DNA of 64,000 nt from Rhodopila globiformis (GTDB taxonomy: Bacteria > Pseudomonadota > Alphaproteobacteria > Acetobacterales > Acetobacteraceae), in the NCBI RefSeq assembly GCF_002937115.1, contig NZ_NHRY01000074.1, forward strand, positions 1-64,000. The letters run 5' to 3'. Position numbers and translations under genes: made by a program. Numbering within the stretch: the stretch's first letter is position 1; the number at the start of each line of letters is the position of its first letter. Below are positions 2,891 to 12,617 of this stretch, in pieces. The notes under the pieces are model-generated. The model saw nothing but the letters and a program-made list of their open reading frames with translations. It did no database searches and was not told the DNA's origin.

Positions 2891-3165
2891 CACCGTCATG
2901 GCCGGGCGTGTCCCCACGCGTATCAGGATAGGACGTCTGGCGGAGCAAGGGCTTCTCCCTCACCGATAGGGGCCGGGCGTGTCCCGGCCATCTGCGCACA
3001 GACGGTGGGGGGTGGACGGCCGGGACGCGCCCGGCCATGACGGTGAGGCAACGGACCTGGCGCCCAATCCTTCTCCGTCCACCACCTTATGCTGATACTC
3101 GTGGGGACACACCCGGCCGTCACGACAAGGAGACGACCGGCGCCCGCGGAACCGCATCTTGATCA
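2891..3165. repeat. Dispersed palindromic repeat, type A copy 1 (composite)
   Basis: Contains CATGGCCGGGCGTGTCC at 2898, an inverted copy around 3025-3043 (ending GGCCATGAC), and the longer tails seen in other copies: ATCAGGATAGG near 2923, CCAATCCTTCTCCG near 3064 and AGACGACCGGCGC near 3132. The same blocks recur at 4.7, 18.8, 27.8, 34.8, 43.8 and 51.1 kb. No gene is supported here. Confidence 0.8.
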
Positions 3166-3175
3166 TAGAAAGCAG

Positions 3176-3202
3176 AAAGCCCCGGACGAGGCCCGGGGCT
3201 TT
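3176..3202 (-). terminator. Rho-independent terminator of the small gene
   Basis: A perfect 10-bp stem, AAAGCCCCGG (3176-3185) with CCGGGGCTTT (3193-3202) and a 7-nt loop. Read on the minus strand the stem ends in a T-rich run (TTTCTGCTTTCT). It lies 40 nt after the stop of the 21-codon gene at 3242-3307. Confidence 0.7.
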
Positions 3203-3241
3203 CACATTGTTTGCAGCTGTCCGTTGCCGGACCGGAGAGTT

Positions 3242-3307
3242 CTATGCCGACGGAATGGCGCCGGCAATCCAGGTCATGGCAATGGAAGCCACCGAACAAT
3301 GAGACAC
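3242..3307 (-). CDS. Small protein (21 aa) with perfect Shine-Dalgarno
   Basis: A GTG start at 3307 is followed by 21 codons and TAG. The peptide begins MSHCSVASIAM and ends TWIAGAIPSA; it is mostly hydrophobic with one Cys, so it could be a membrane or leader peptide. Upstream lies AAAGGAGGTGATCC (3309-3322), a full-length complement of the 16S anti-Shine-Dalgarno, spaced 7 nt from GGAGG to the start. A plausible promoter (TTGGTT, 17 nt, TTAACT) precedes it and a strong terminator follows. Together these make an independent transcription unit, divergent from the dehydrogenase at 3470. Function unknown; it may be a leader peptide rather than a working protein. Confidence 0.55.
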   Translation of the reverse strand: MSHCSVASIAMTWIAGAIPSA

Positions 3308-3308
3308 T

Positions 3309-3322
3309 GGATCACCTCCTTT
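3309..3322 (-). promoter_or_regulatory. Perfect extended ribosome binding site
   Basis: Minus-strand AAAGGAGGTGATCC complements the 16S rRNA 3' end over 14 nt, much longer than any other RBS in this window. It decides the GTG start at 3307. Confidence 0.65.
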
Positions 3323-3373
3323 CAGTTGTTGCGACGATCCCCGAAGTTTGCGCCGAAACCATGCGGGTTGGCA

Positions 3374-3402
3374 AGTTAACCAATTGTTCAAATTGCAACC
3401 AA
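3374..3402 (-). promoter_or_regulatory. Putative sigma-70 promoter with operator-like dyad
   Basis: Minus-strand TTGGTT (3397-3402) and TTAACT (3374-3379) are 17 nt apart. The dyad CAATT-GTTCA-AATTG (3381-3395) sits in the spacer, where a repressor could act. The leader to the small gene would be about 60 nt. The dehydrogenase promoter probably shares this region. Confidence 0.35.
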
Positions 3403-3469
3403 CACCGCCCGCCCCTTTCCGCCCGTGCCCGCCTCCGCCATGCTGGCGCCAAAGCAGGAGGATAACCCC

Positions 3470-4639
3470 ATGATCCGTGGCATTCACCGCACGCCGCCGA
3501 TGGACCGCGTCGTCTATGGCATTCCCCTCGCCGAAGCCCTGGCTGACGAGATCACCCGCCTCGGTGCCCGCGCGGTGTATGTCCTGGCCAGCGGCACGCT
3601 CAATCGGGAGACGGATGTCGTCGACACGGTGCGCCATGTCCTGGGCAACCGTCTGGCCGGGTTGTGTGCCCGCATCGGCGCGCACACGCCGCGCACCGAC
3701 GTCGTGGCCGCGGCGAACGAGGCGCGGGCGGCCCGGGCCGACTGGCTGCTGACCGTCGGCGGCGGATCGGTGACCGACGCGGCCAAGATGATCGGCCTGT
3801 GCCTGGGCAACGACGTGACGGCGCCGGCGCAGCTCGATGCATTCCGCGCCGTCATTACGGCGGACGGAAAGACCGAACGGCCGCCGGTCAGGTCGCCGGC
3901 CCTGCGCTCGATCGACGTGCCGACGACCCTGTCGGCCGGTGAATACACCGCCATGGCCGGCTGCACCGACACGGTGCGGCATGTGAAGGAAAGCTATGCG
4001 CATCCGCTGATGATGCCGCATACGGTAATCCTCGACCCGGCCGTCACCGTCCACACGCCGGCGTGGCTGTTCCTGTCCACCGGCATCCGCGCCGTCGATC
4101 ATGCGGTGGAGGACATCTGCTCGATCAACCCCGCACCGTTCTCCGACGGGACGTCGCTGCACGCGCTGCGCCTGCTGTCCACCGGTCTGCCGCGGGTGAA
4201 GGCGAACCCGGGTGACCTGGACGCGCGGCTGGACTGCCAGCTTGGTGCGTGGATGTCGATCATGGGATCGCAGAACGGCGTCAGCAAAGGCGCCAGCCAC
4301 GGCATCGGCCACGTGCTGGGCGGCACCGCCAACGTGCCGCACGGCTATACCTCCTGCGTGATGCTGCCGCACGTGCTGCGCTTCAACGAACCGGTCAACG
4401 CCGCGCGGCAGAAATGGGTGAGCGAGGCGCTCGGGCAGCCGGACCAGCCGGCTGCGGACGCGGTCGCGGCCCTGATCGCCGGCCTGGGCCTGCCGCGCAC
4501 GCTGCGGGAGGTGGGCGTGACGGCTGACCAGCTCGATGTGATCGCAAAGGGCTCGATGCACGACCGCTGGGTTCACACCAATCCGCGGAAGATCGATGGT
4601 TCGGCGACGGTGCGCGCGCTGCTGGATGCGGCATGGTAG
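3470..4639 (+). CDS. Iron-containing alcohol dehydrogenase / maleylacetate reductase family
   Basis: A 389-residue NAD(P)-dependent oxidoreductase of the group III (Fe-type) family. The nucleotide-binding loop is GGGSVTDAAK (about residues 96-105), followed by DVPTTLSAGEYT. The helical domain carries the metal-site pattern AVDHAVED (about 210) and SHGIGHVLGG (about 273), then NVPHGYTS. The C-terminus WVHTNPRKI resembles the NPRPI ending of maleylacetate reductases, so reduction of a ring-cleavage product is possible, but no aromatic pathway gene is adjacent. The start is set by AGGAGG 8 nt before ATG 3470; an ATG at 3440 has no RBS. It is monocistronic. Confidence 0.85.
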   Translation: MIRGIHRTPPMDRVVYGIPLAEALADEITRLGARAVYVLASGTLNRETDVVDTVRHVLGNRLAGLCARIGAHTPRTDVVAAANEARAARADWLLTVGGGSVTDAAKMIGLCLGNDVTAPAQLDAFRAVITADGKTERPPVRSPALRSIDVPTTLSAGEYTAMAGCTDTVRHVKESYAHPLMMPHTVILDPAVTVHTPAWLFLSTGIRAVDHAVEDICSINPAPFSDGTSLHALRLLSTGLPRVKANPGDLDARLDCQLGAWMSIMGSQNGVSKGASHGIGHVLGGTANVPHGYTSCVMLPHVLRFNEPVNAARQKWVSEALGQPDQPAADAVAALIAGLGLPRTLREVGVTADQLDVIAKGSMHDRWVHTNPRKIDGSATVRALLDAAW

Positions 4640-4700
4640 TTGGCCAGCTGGCGCGCCGGCACCGTGGGGCCCGAAAATGGGTGAGAGGCCGTTGCCTCTC

Positions 4701-4822
4701 CGTCATGGCCGGGCGTGTCCCGGCCATCCACCCCCCACCGTTGAAGCGCAGATGGCCGGCCACGCCCAACCATGACGATAGAGAGACGACCGGCGCTTGC
4801 GAGACCGCATTTTCATAGGAGC
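4701..4822. repeat. Dispersed palindromic repeat, type A copy 2
   Basis: A 76-bp core from CGTCATGGCCGGGCG to CCATGACG, slightly degenerate in the right arm, followed by the AGACGACCGGCGC...ACCGCATTTTCATAG tail shared with copies at 3.1 and 51.2 kb. Confidence 0.8.
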
Positions 4823-5848: not shown

Positions 5849-5940
5849 ACGTCATGGTGGGCGAAGGCCCACCATCCGTGCCTTCTGATGGTATCAGCAC
5901 CGCAAGGCGTAGATGGCCAGCCTGCGCCGGCAATGACGAT
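5849..5940. repeat. Dispersed palindromic repeat, type B copy 1
   Basis: An imperfect inverted repeat from CGTCATGGTGGGC to GCCGGCAATGACG, with internal CCTTCTGATGGTATC and GCAAGGCG. A second copy lies at 15694-15790 in the opposite orientation. Confidence 0.7.
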
Positions 5941-6008
5941 GAAGGCGCGCCGTCGGGTCGTCTCAACCTATCTGCGGTTTGCTGTAGCGCCGATGCCGGC
6001 ACCCCGCC

Positions 6009-11231: not shown

Positions 11232-12617
11232 ATGAAAGCCGACGAACTGCTTGCCCTGATGAACGAACCGGCCTGCGCGCAGAACGCGAAGGCCAAGTCG
11301 GGCTGTGCCAAACCGCAGCCGGGTGCCACCCAGGGCGGGTGCTGCTTCGATGGCGCCCGTAATGCCCTGCTGCCTATAGCGGATGCGGCTCATATAGTAC
11401 ATGGGCCGATCGGCTGTGCCGGATCGTCGTGGGACAATCGCGGCTCGCGGTCCAGCGGGGCGGATCTGTTCCGCATCGGCATGACAACCGACCTGTCGGA
11501 CATGGACGTCGTCATGGGACGCGGGGAGAAACGGCTGTTCAACGCCGTGCGCCAGGCGGTGGAGACCTATAATCCGGCCGGCGTGTTCATCTACAACACC
11601 TGCGTGCCCGCGCTGCAGGGCGACGACATCGAGGCCGTCGCCAGGCTGGCGGCGGAACGGTTCGGCGTGCCGGTGGTGCCGGTGGATTGCGCCGGCTTCT
11701 ACGGCAACAAGAACCTCGGCAATCGCATCGGCGGCGACGCTGTCTACAAGCACGTCATCGGCACGCGCGAGCCGGACCCGGTGCCCGCCTCCGCGCGGCG
11801 GCCGGGCATCGTCACCCACGACGTCAACCTGATCGGGGAATGGAACGTTGGCGGCGAGTTCTGGTCTGTCGCGCCGCTGTTCGACGAACTTGGCCTGCGC
11901 GTCCTGTGCACATTCTCCGGCGACTCCCGGTTCCGGGACGTGCAGACGATGCATCGGGCAGAGGCCAACATGGTGGTGTGCTCCAAGGCGATGATCCACG
12001 TCGCGCGCAAGCTGCAGGCGGATCATGGCACGCCGTTCTTTGAAGGCAGCTTCTACGGGATTGCCGACACCTCCCGTGCCTTCCGCAACCTGGCGCGGCT
12101 GCTGGACGATGCGGATCTCGTCGCGCGGACCGAGGCGCTGATCGCGCGCGGGGAAGCCAGGGTCGAGGCTGCGCTGGCGCCGTTGCGTCCGCGCCTGGCC
12201 GGCAAGCGGGTGCTGATCTTCACCGGCGGTTACAAGTCCTGGTCGATTGTTTCTGCCATGCAGGATTTCGGCTTGGACGTGGTCGCCACGGGAACGGAGA
12301 AATCCACCGAGGAAGACAAGGCCCGGATCCGAGAATTGATGGGACCCGACGCCCGGATGATCTCCGACAACGACCAGACGGCGTTGTTGCGGACCTTCCA
12401 CGAATGCCGCGGTGACATTCTGATCGCCGGCGACCGCTATATCTATCCGACGCTGAAGTCGCGCATCCCGTTCCTGGACATCGATCATGTCAGGCGCATC
12501 GGCTATGCCGGCTATGACGGCATGATCGAGCTTGCCACGAATCTCGTGCACACCGTGCATTCGCCGATCTGGGCGAGGCTGCGGGGCGATGCGGCGGAAC
12601 CGCGGCAGGCGGCCTGA
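11232..12617 (+). CDS. nifE: FeMo-cofactor scaffold protein NifE
   Basis: 461 residues, the usual NifE length. It opens with the characteristic NEPAC...SGCAKP...[12 protein letters not shown], then [18 protein letters not shown] and [18 protein letters not shown]. These hold the Cys ligands for the bridging cluster of the NifEN scaffold. With NifN it forms the cytoplasmic heterotetramer on which the NifB cofactor matures. ATG 11232 gives the family N-terminus; an in-frame GTG at 11220 is possible. First gene of the nifENX operon. Confidence 0.96.

Follow-up and report, generated by a model that had tools for sequence, protein, structure and literature searches.

A small RNA related to CC2171 with an extended Shine-Dalgarno sequence and an apparently peptide-indifferent reading frame in Alphaproteobacteria

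The locus and its catalogued relative

In the 64,000-nt stretch of Rhodopila globiformis DNA analyzed here (contig NZ_NHRY01000074.1, positions 1 to 64,000; hereafter the window), two plus-strand genes, encoding an OmpA-family protein (1534-2835) and an iron-containing alcohol dehydrogenase (3425-4639), flank a predicted small RNA gene, about 160 nt long, on the minus strand. From its predicted RNA start near position 3338, the minus strand reads through a CAACAAC leader (3324..3338), an extended Shine-Dalgarno sequence (SD) GAAAGGAGGTGATCCAG (3307..3323) with the core AAAGGAGGTGATCC (3322-3309), and a GTG start codon (3307-3305) located 7 nt from GGAGG, into the 21-codon frame VSHCSVASIAMTWIAGAIPSA (3242..3307), which ends with a TAG stop codon (3244-3242). 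These coordinates agree with a sequence-only reading of the locus, which had described a 21-codon gene with this start. Codons 3-5 of the frame supply the motif CATTGTT (3295..3301, minus strand), the 5' arm of a helix, P1, that is predicted from a 31-sequence consensus fold and an arm test described below and whose 3' arm, AACAATG (3205..3211, minus strand), lies just ahead of the terminator. Between the two arms are CTGGATTGCC (3263..3272, minus strand), a stretch within the TWIA codons that partially resembles the 16S rRNA tail and could pair with the SD at 3316-3307, and, 3' of the stop codon, the consensus-fold hairpin GTCCG-GCAA-CGGAC (3219..3232, minus strand). The unit closes with an intrinsic terminator followed by TGCTTTCTAT (3175..3203, minus strand), which the sequence-only reading had recognized, with a stem of 10 bp rather than the 13 pairs called here.

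The weak point of that reading is the claim that the gene has its own promoter. The promoter-like boxes TTGCCA (3374-3369) and CAAACT (3350-3345), separated by an 18-nt spacer on the minus strand, were read from the sequence, and a consensus scan upstream of the element found no sigma-70 promoter. The looser pattern TTGN3-N16-19-YANNNT, which the stretch 3374-3345 fits, is nevertheless enriched, being present upstream of 63% of 161 copies of the element compared with 5% of shuffles. Furthermore, CAAC or AACA occurs within 16 nt ahead of the SD in 89% of the 161 copies and in 15% of shuffled sequences.

Elsewhere in the window, long imperfect inverted repeats surround CGTCATGGCCGGGCGTGTCCCGGCCAT in the intergenic segment 2885-3124, which has the look of a dispersed palindromic repeat, and similar letters were seen by eye near 4700-4790 and 5850-5950. 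In the segment 9300-12000, inspection by eye suggested a nitrogen-fixation cluster: the minus strand appears to encode a NifA-like regulator, and a putative NifE-like frame starts at 11232 on the plus strand.

A relaxed Rfam search of positions 3100-3500 aligned the element with RF01867, the Caulobacter sRNA CC2171, over the complete model (1-159 of 159) with an E value of 1.3e-8. The score of 45.9 bits is 29 bits under the curated cut-off of 75, which the window element does not reach. Among 19 related loci scanned, five attain the cut-off, namely L062, L128 (Methylobacterium), L132 (Falsiroseomonas), L145 (Brevundimonas) and L150 (Rhizobium), all of the VSHC type, to which seven of the scanned loci belong; the other 14, including all the Rhodobacterales, sphingomonad, Bradyrhizobium and Mesorhizobium types tried, contain no gathering-level RF01867. 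Judged by sequence, the window element is firmly placed as a divergent relative of this uncharacterised Caulobacter sRNA family, not as a formal member. In the passages available, the CC2171 family is represented by one table row of a predicted sRNA in Mesorhizobium huakuii (PMC5596092) and by one table row in PMC11701678. Counting against a translated frame, the Caulobacter genome paper states in general terms that translation does not occur in the ncRNA regions it mapped (PMC4117421). We found no account of the frame and no function for CC2171 in the portions seen of the open-licence literature.

Shine-Dalgarno sequence, distribution and reading frame

The segment 3323-3307 on the minus strand is complementary over 17 nt to what we take to be the 3' tail of 16S rRNA, a sequence that was not found in the host assembly, and the predicted duplex has an energy of -32.4 kcal/mol. 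The next-best complementarity to this tail anywhere in the window, on both strands, is 10 nt, which bears out the earlier observation that this ribosome-binding site is far superior to all others in the window. Neither the 17-nt extent of this match nor the likeness to a catalogued sRNA family had been noticed in the sequence-only reading. The 14-mer core occurs as a single exact copy in the 7.25-Mb assembly, with one further site at one mismatch. Of 16 other genomes searched, two gave the exact tail string GGCTGGATCACCTCCTTTCT, as a string match alone; another two matched it at two mismatches, in one case through the element itself, and the remaining 12 gave no match. We considered that the 14-mer could be part of a 16S gene on the opposite strand and rejected this explanation, given that the likeness to 16S ends after CTGGATCACCTCCTTTC and that the window contains neither an Rfam family at gathering level nor a tRNA. 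In 34 rows with one mismatch to the search pattern, GGAGGTG, C13 and the TG of the start codon are never altered; the mismatches fall at positions 1 (6 rows), 3 (1), 11 (9), 12 (1), 14 (16) and the last base of the pattern (1), and all nine at position 11 are A to G changes that retain a wobble pair with 16S.

Of the 32 congeneric genomes besides the window's own, 30 contain the element with E values of 2e-16 or better, the two genomes that lack it having a completeness of 80% and 68%, and this conservation excludes chance as the origin of the site. Across the class, the exact pattern AAAGGAGGTGATCCNNTGTC is present once in each of 56 of 385 genomes, the window's own included, and the reversed-pattern control has no match; with up to one mismatch, 89 of the 385 match, a stringency at which a missing hit does not prove true absence from a genome. 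In a sample of 160 genomes from the phylum, exact matches occur in 21 of 41 alphaproteobacteria and in 0 of 119 other Proteobacteria. Among the matches listed, at least 117 of which are named, all but seven titles, as we read them, belong to alphaproteobacterial groups, the seven being two Gemmatimonadetes, one Nitrospinota, one SAR92 MAG and three labelled only 'Proteobacteria'. The two Gemmatimonadetes MAGs and the Nitrospinota MAG (L081, L112 and L190) carry the same SD and a TTG start, followed by frames of 20 or 14 codons and then hairpins, and their presence may reflect transfer, misbinning or a wider distribution. Six matches were found in 2.9 million viral contigs, at least three of them with Bradyrhizobium-type frames and one resembling an ordinary phage gene. 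A single genome (G046) among the 89 matching class genomes has two copies, L033 and L034, which are divergent (MSHCHALN... and MSHGSAKG...).

The boundaries of the frame were compared in 134 copies, which remained of 147 loci (L044-L190) after removal of 13 with identical first 60 nt. The start codon is GTG in 67 of these distinct copies, ATG in 62, TTG in 5 and CTG in none, the first base alone being free to vary here, as TG and the following TC are fixed by the search pattern; on a tree of 127 copies, the start codon switched at least nine times. In lineage sets chosen by peptide pattern (for sphingomonads also by a length below 25), the first frame-0 stop lies at +54 in all 17 Rhodobacterales copies and in 22 of 24 sphingomonad copies, at +42 in all six Bradyrhizobium copies and at +63 in 29 of the 30 copies from the genus. 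The exception in the genus, L015, has one codon inserted and a frame one codon longer. One of the sphingomonad exceptions, L186, likewise has one codon inserted, and the other, L159, has CAG at the usual stop and a frame two codons longer; two additional codons are also seen in L200, a Bradyrhizobium-type copy from a viral contig. In the Mesorhizobium-type set (n = 11), the stops are at +66 (5 copies), +69 (4) and +75 (2), and VSHC-type frames span 20 to 26 codons.

Some out-of-frame stops are kept as well: all 11 Mesorhizobium-type copies have a frame-2 stop at +8, 11 of the 17 Rhodobacterales copies have one at +5, and 20 of the 30 genus copies share a frame-1 stop at +31, as expected if the RNA itself is conserved. 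A stronger sign of a kept frame than the comparison of frame-0 with other-frame stop positions is the switching of the stop codon in place. Parsimony on trees of the element itself requires at least nine changes among TAA, TAG and TGA in Rhodobacterales, at least six in sphingomonads and at least seven in the genus; the columns beside the stop vary freely, and the first T of the stop is invariant in copies with the usual stop. Apart from the exceptions listed, the start and the stop are kept and their codons are interchangeable, the pattern looked for in a translated frame, and the sequences provide good support for conserved frame boundaries. Relatives thus retain more than the RNA, contrary to one outcome that the sequence-only reading had envisaged: the start and, in several lineages, the position of the stop are conserved as well.

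The encoded peptide was examined with a codon test that measures the BLOSUM gain over column shuffles. In the genus, 30 copies yielded 27 distinct 21-codon sequences after exclusion of one 22-codon sequence and two duplicates (L024, at a contig end, was also left out), and the frame scores z 0.5, below the 1.2 of frame 1. The Rhodobacterales set (16 sequences) gives z 1.0 and the sphingomonad set (24 sequences) z -0.9, with 1.3 in frame 2 and with third codon positions being the least variable; the value for the Mesorhizobium type, z -0.4, comes from four sequences, too few to judge. As a control, 69 overlapping 20-codon blocks of the two flanking genes (10-14 sequences each, identity 0.66-0.90) score z 4.6 to 9.1. 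A conserved peptide in the window's genus was rejected on this comparison, and peptide indifference there is well supported by the sequences. The proposal of a highly translated small protein is accordingly disfavored, with amino-acid selection lacking in three lineage sets and the test having power in the flanking genes. A weak peptide constraint may still exist, and the test could understate selection on the peptide because RNA pairing restrains synonymous change. The peptide motifs VSHC, PRS and TWI-AS recur across distant orders and coincide with P1, P2 and SD-complementary stretches; with VSHC and PRS falling on helices, their recurrence can be explained without peptide selection.

A different situation was encountered in an Azospirillum-like family, probably Azospirillaceae as judged from the likeness to L152 (title Azospirillum sp. 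B21), in which a related pattern, with no more than two mismatches allowed, is present in 13 of 39 genomes. The 16 frames recovered (13 distinct, three earlier loci among them) comprise 56-59 codons with a signal-peptide-like start and display codon-level selection, with z 4.1 in frame 0 and values below 0 in the other frames, in an ungapped comparison in which a few frames differ by one codon. Because these long frames score z 4.1, selection can capture a peptide at this site and the codon test can detect it. In L048, L152, L194 and L213-L225, the same SD and an MSHG start lead into the frame of 56-59 aa, and one genome (G558) holds both the long form (L213) and a short CC2171-like form (L226). 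In these relatives, a protein gene may have been born from a disposable frame.

RNA folding and pairing of the Shine-Dalgarno sequence

The window RNA is predicted to fold with -72 kcal/mol (z -4.3 relative to shuffles), a long stem containing the frame. In the centroid fold the SD is open, whereas in the minimum-energy fold its 3' part is paired to the leader; the CAACAAC leader is correspondingly unpaired in the former and partly paired in the latter. In the consensus fold of 31 sequences from the genus, P1 joins columns 38-44 with columns 139-145 and is largely invariant, with wobble changes in no more than five sequences and one pair broken in one sequence. The terminator stem covaries strongly, and every pair of the GCAA hairpin that follows the stop is kept in 30 or 31 of the 31 sequences. 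P1 also appears in the consensus folds of the VSHC type (34 sequences), which has a second helix near CCGCGG, of sphingomonads (21) and of the Mesorhizobium type (11). The Rhodobacterales consensus (17) contains a different long helix that involves the SD, and P1 was not seen in the consensus of the MSSE group (10 sequences).

Of the 134 copies, 130 were long enough, 128 had a terminator call and entered the arm test, and 124 entered the SD-partner test. In the arm test, matched P1 arms pair better than swapped arms in all seven groups, one of which is a mixed remainder; the gain, a purely descriptive comparison of energies, lies between 2.0 and 5.9 kcal/mol (spread 2.3-3.8). Matched arms are also stronger than shuffled arms.

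Pairing of the SD within the RNA varies among lineages. In the Rhodobacterales consensus, the SD pairs with a stretch that resembles CCACCTCCTT and is close to the terminator, the variants preserving wobble, and in the MSSE-group consensus it pairs with GGAGCARCCTYC. The best downstream SD partner has a mean z of -0.93 over the 124 copies, compared with -0.20 for a reversed-SD control. Group means are -1.71 for Rhodobacterales, -1.53 for the Mesorhizobium type, -0.89 for MSSE, -0.77 for the others and -0.64 for VSHC; in sphingomonads the control does better (-0.63 versus -0.38), and in the six Bradyrhizobium-type copies the two are about equal (-1.93 versus -1.81 for the control). For the window, the potential duplex of CTGGATTGCC (3272-3263) with 3316-3307 amounts to -13.7 kcal/mol, less than half of the energy calculated for the 16S tail, and in the window's own fold no downstream partner, CTGGATTGCC included, takes the SD. 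These results support only in part the notion that an internal anti-SD locks the SD.

Possible roles and comparison with known systems

The reading that we favor, with moderate confidence, is a free-standing, translated, peptide-indifferent small RNA that is opened by ribosome loading. The comparison of sequences supports the SD, the conservation of start and stop, peptide indifference and, in the genus, P1. The CAACAA leader and the 17-nt SD would recruit 30S subunits very strongly, and the 21-codon frame would be translated from GTG up to the kept stop, with the peptide as a by-product: the start and the stop would be under selection, the amino acids would not. P1, formed by codons 3-5 with the stretch ahead of the terminator, would enclose the frame, and because the frame sits within P1, ribosome loading and the folded state should be mutually exclusive. 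Loading and the run to the stop would then shift the RNA from a closed to an open form with a freed 3' arm, a switch that would govern how stable the RNA is or how it pairs with other RNAs. We infer that the element is transcribed and translated in the host, and likewise the ribosome-gated switch, its output and its targets.

A more specific version, in which the RNA acts as a sensor of free 30S subunits across the class, appears rather unlikely. Here, the SD would pair either with the real 16S tail or with an internal likeness of it (CTGGATTGCC in the window, YGGATY..GCCTY or CCACCTCCTT in other lineages), such that the fold would report ribosome supply, and the disposable frame with its kept stop would set the extent to which a captured ribosome opens the RNA. 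The SD-partner data support this idea only moderately.

Among the alternatives, a functional small protein, that is, a hydrophobic 21-codon peptide acting in the membrane or on a partner and produced in large amounts from the strong SD, is unlikely though credible. The largely conserved start and stop, the motifs shared by distant orders and the selected protein of 56-59 aa in the Azospirillum-like relatives would all fit such a role, which is difficult to reconcile with the lack of codon-level selection in the genus, Rhodobacterales and sphingomonads, given the scores of the flanking genes at similar divergence, and with the overlap of the recurrent motifs with P1, P2 and SD-complementary stretches. 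Quite improbable is a pure stabiliser, in which a 30S subunit bound near the 5' end would merely shield the RNA from nucleases, an arrangement comparable to the STAB-SD of Bacillus cry mRNAs; the SD is indeed close to the predicted 5' end and the leader is open in the centroid fold, but an in-frame kept stop codon would have no reason. A cis-acting leader or attenuator of a downstream gene is very nearly untenable. A short frame followed by a terminator is attenuator-like, and the sequence-only reading had raised the possibility of a leader whose translation is sensed. However, a minus-strand leader could serve neither flanking gene because both are on the plus strand, including the next gene in that direction (1534-2835); the terminator ends the unit, and across 129 loci no widely conserved neighbor gene was found, the largest neighbor cluster covering 14 of them. 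What survives of that suggestion is that translation itself may be what matters.

Distinctly unlikely is a base-pairing sRNA whose extended SD alone would function as a decoy for the 16S tail or as a sponge of sRNAs with anti-SD seeds, translation being incidental. It would account for the unaltered GGAGGTG in the 34 one-mismatch rows and for the cataloguing of RF01867 as an sRNA, and a precedent is described in the part of PMC12559287 available to us, in which CrfA of Caulobacter acts as a sponge of the SisA-D sRNAs and pairs with a 10-mer in them that carries an anti-SD signature. Yet, the complementarity reaches GATCCAG, which fits 16S rather than a seed limited to CCUCC, and the in-place switching of stop codons would be left unexplained.

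On the favored reading of a translated, peptide-indifferent RNA, a catalogued sRNA without an assigned function would be an apparently widespread alphaproteobacterial element with a frame under selection for translation, not for the peptide made. If conserved in a free-standing bacterial RNA, peptide-indifferent translation would offer a testable way into the question of how cells sense ribosome supply.

The closest known relative, RF01867 CC2171, shares with the window element the CAACAA..GAAAGGAGGUGAUCCAGUGUCUCAUUGU block, the closing helix and the terminator stem, whereas its description line does not mention a reading frame. Among dual-function sRNAs and small mRNAs, rnTrpL of Sinorhizobium meliloti is likewise a short transcript with a short frame, of 14 aa, and, according to the portion of PMC10117765 available, acts both as RNA and by translation; unlike the window element, which has an extreme SD and a peptide that is not conserved, rnTrpL is a leaderless RNA that encodes a functional peptide. 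SD/anti-SD chemistry also links the element to the anti-SD sRNAs SmelA075/A099, with CCUCCUCCC loops, and SisA-D, as far as described in the available parts of PMC3927594 and PMC12559287. In contrast to these sRNAs, the window RNA bears the SD itself, complementary to 16S over 17 nt, in place of an anti-SD loop.
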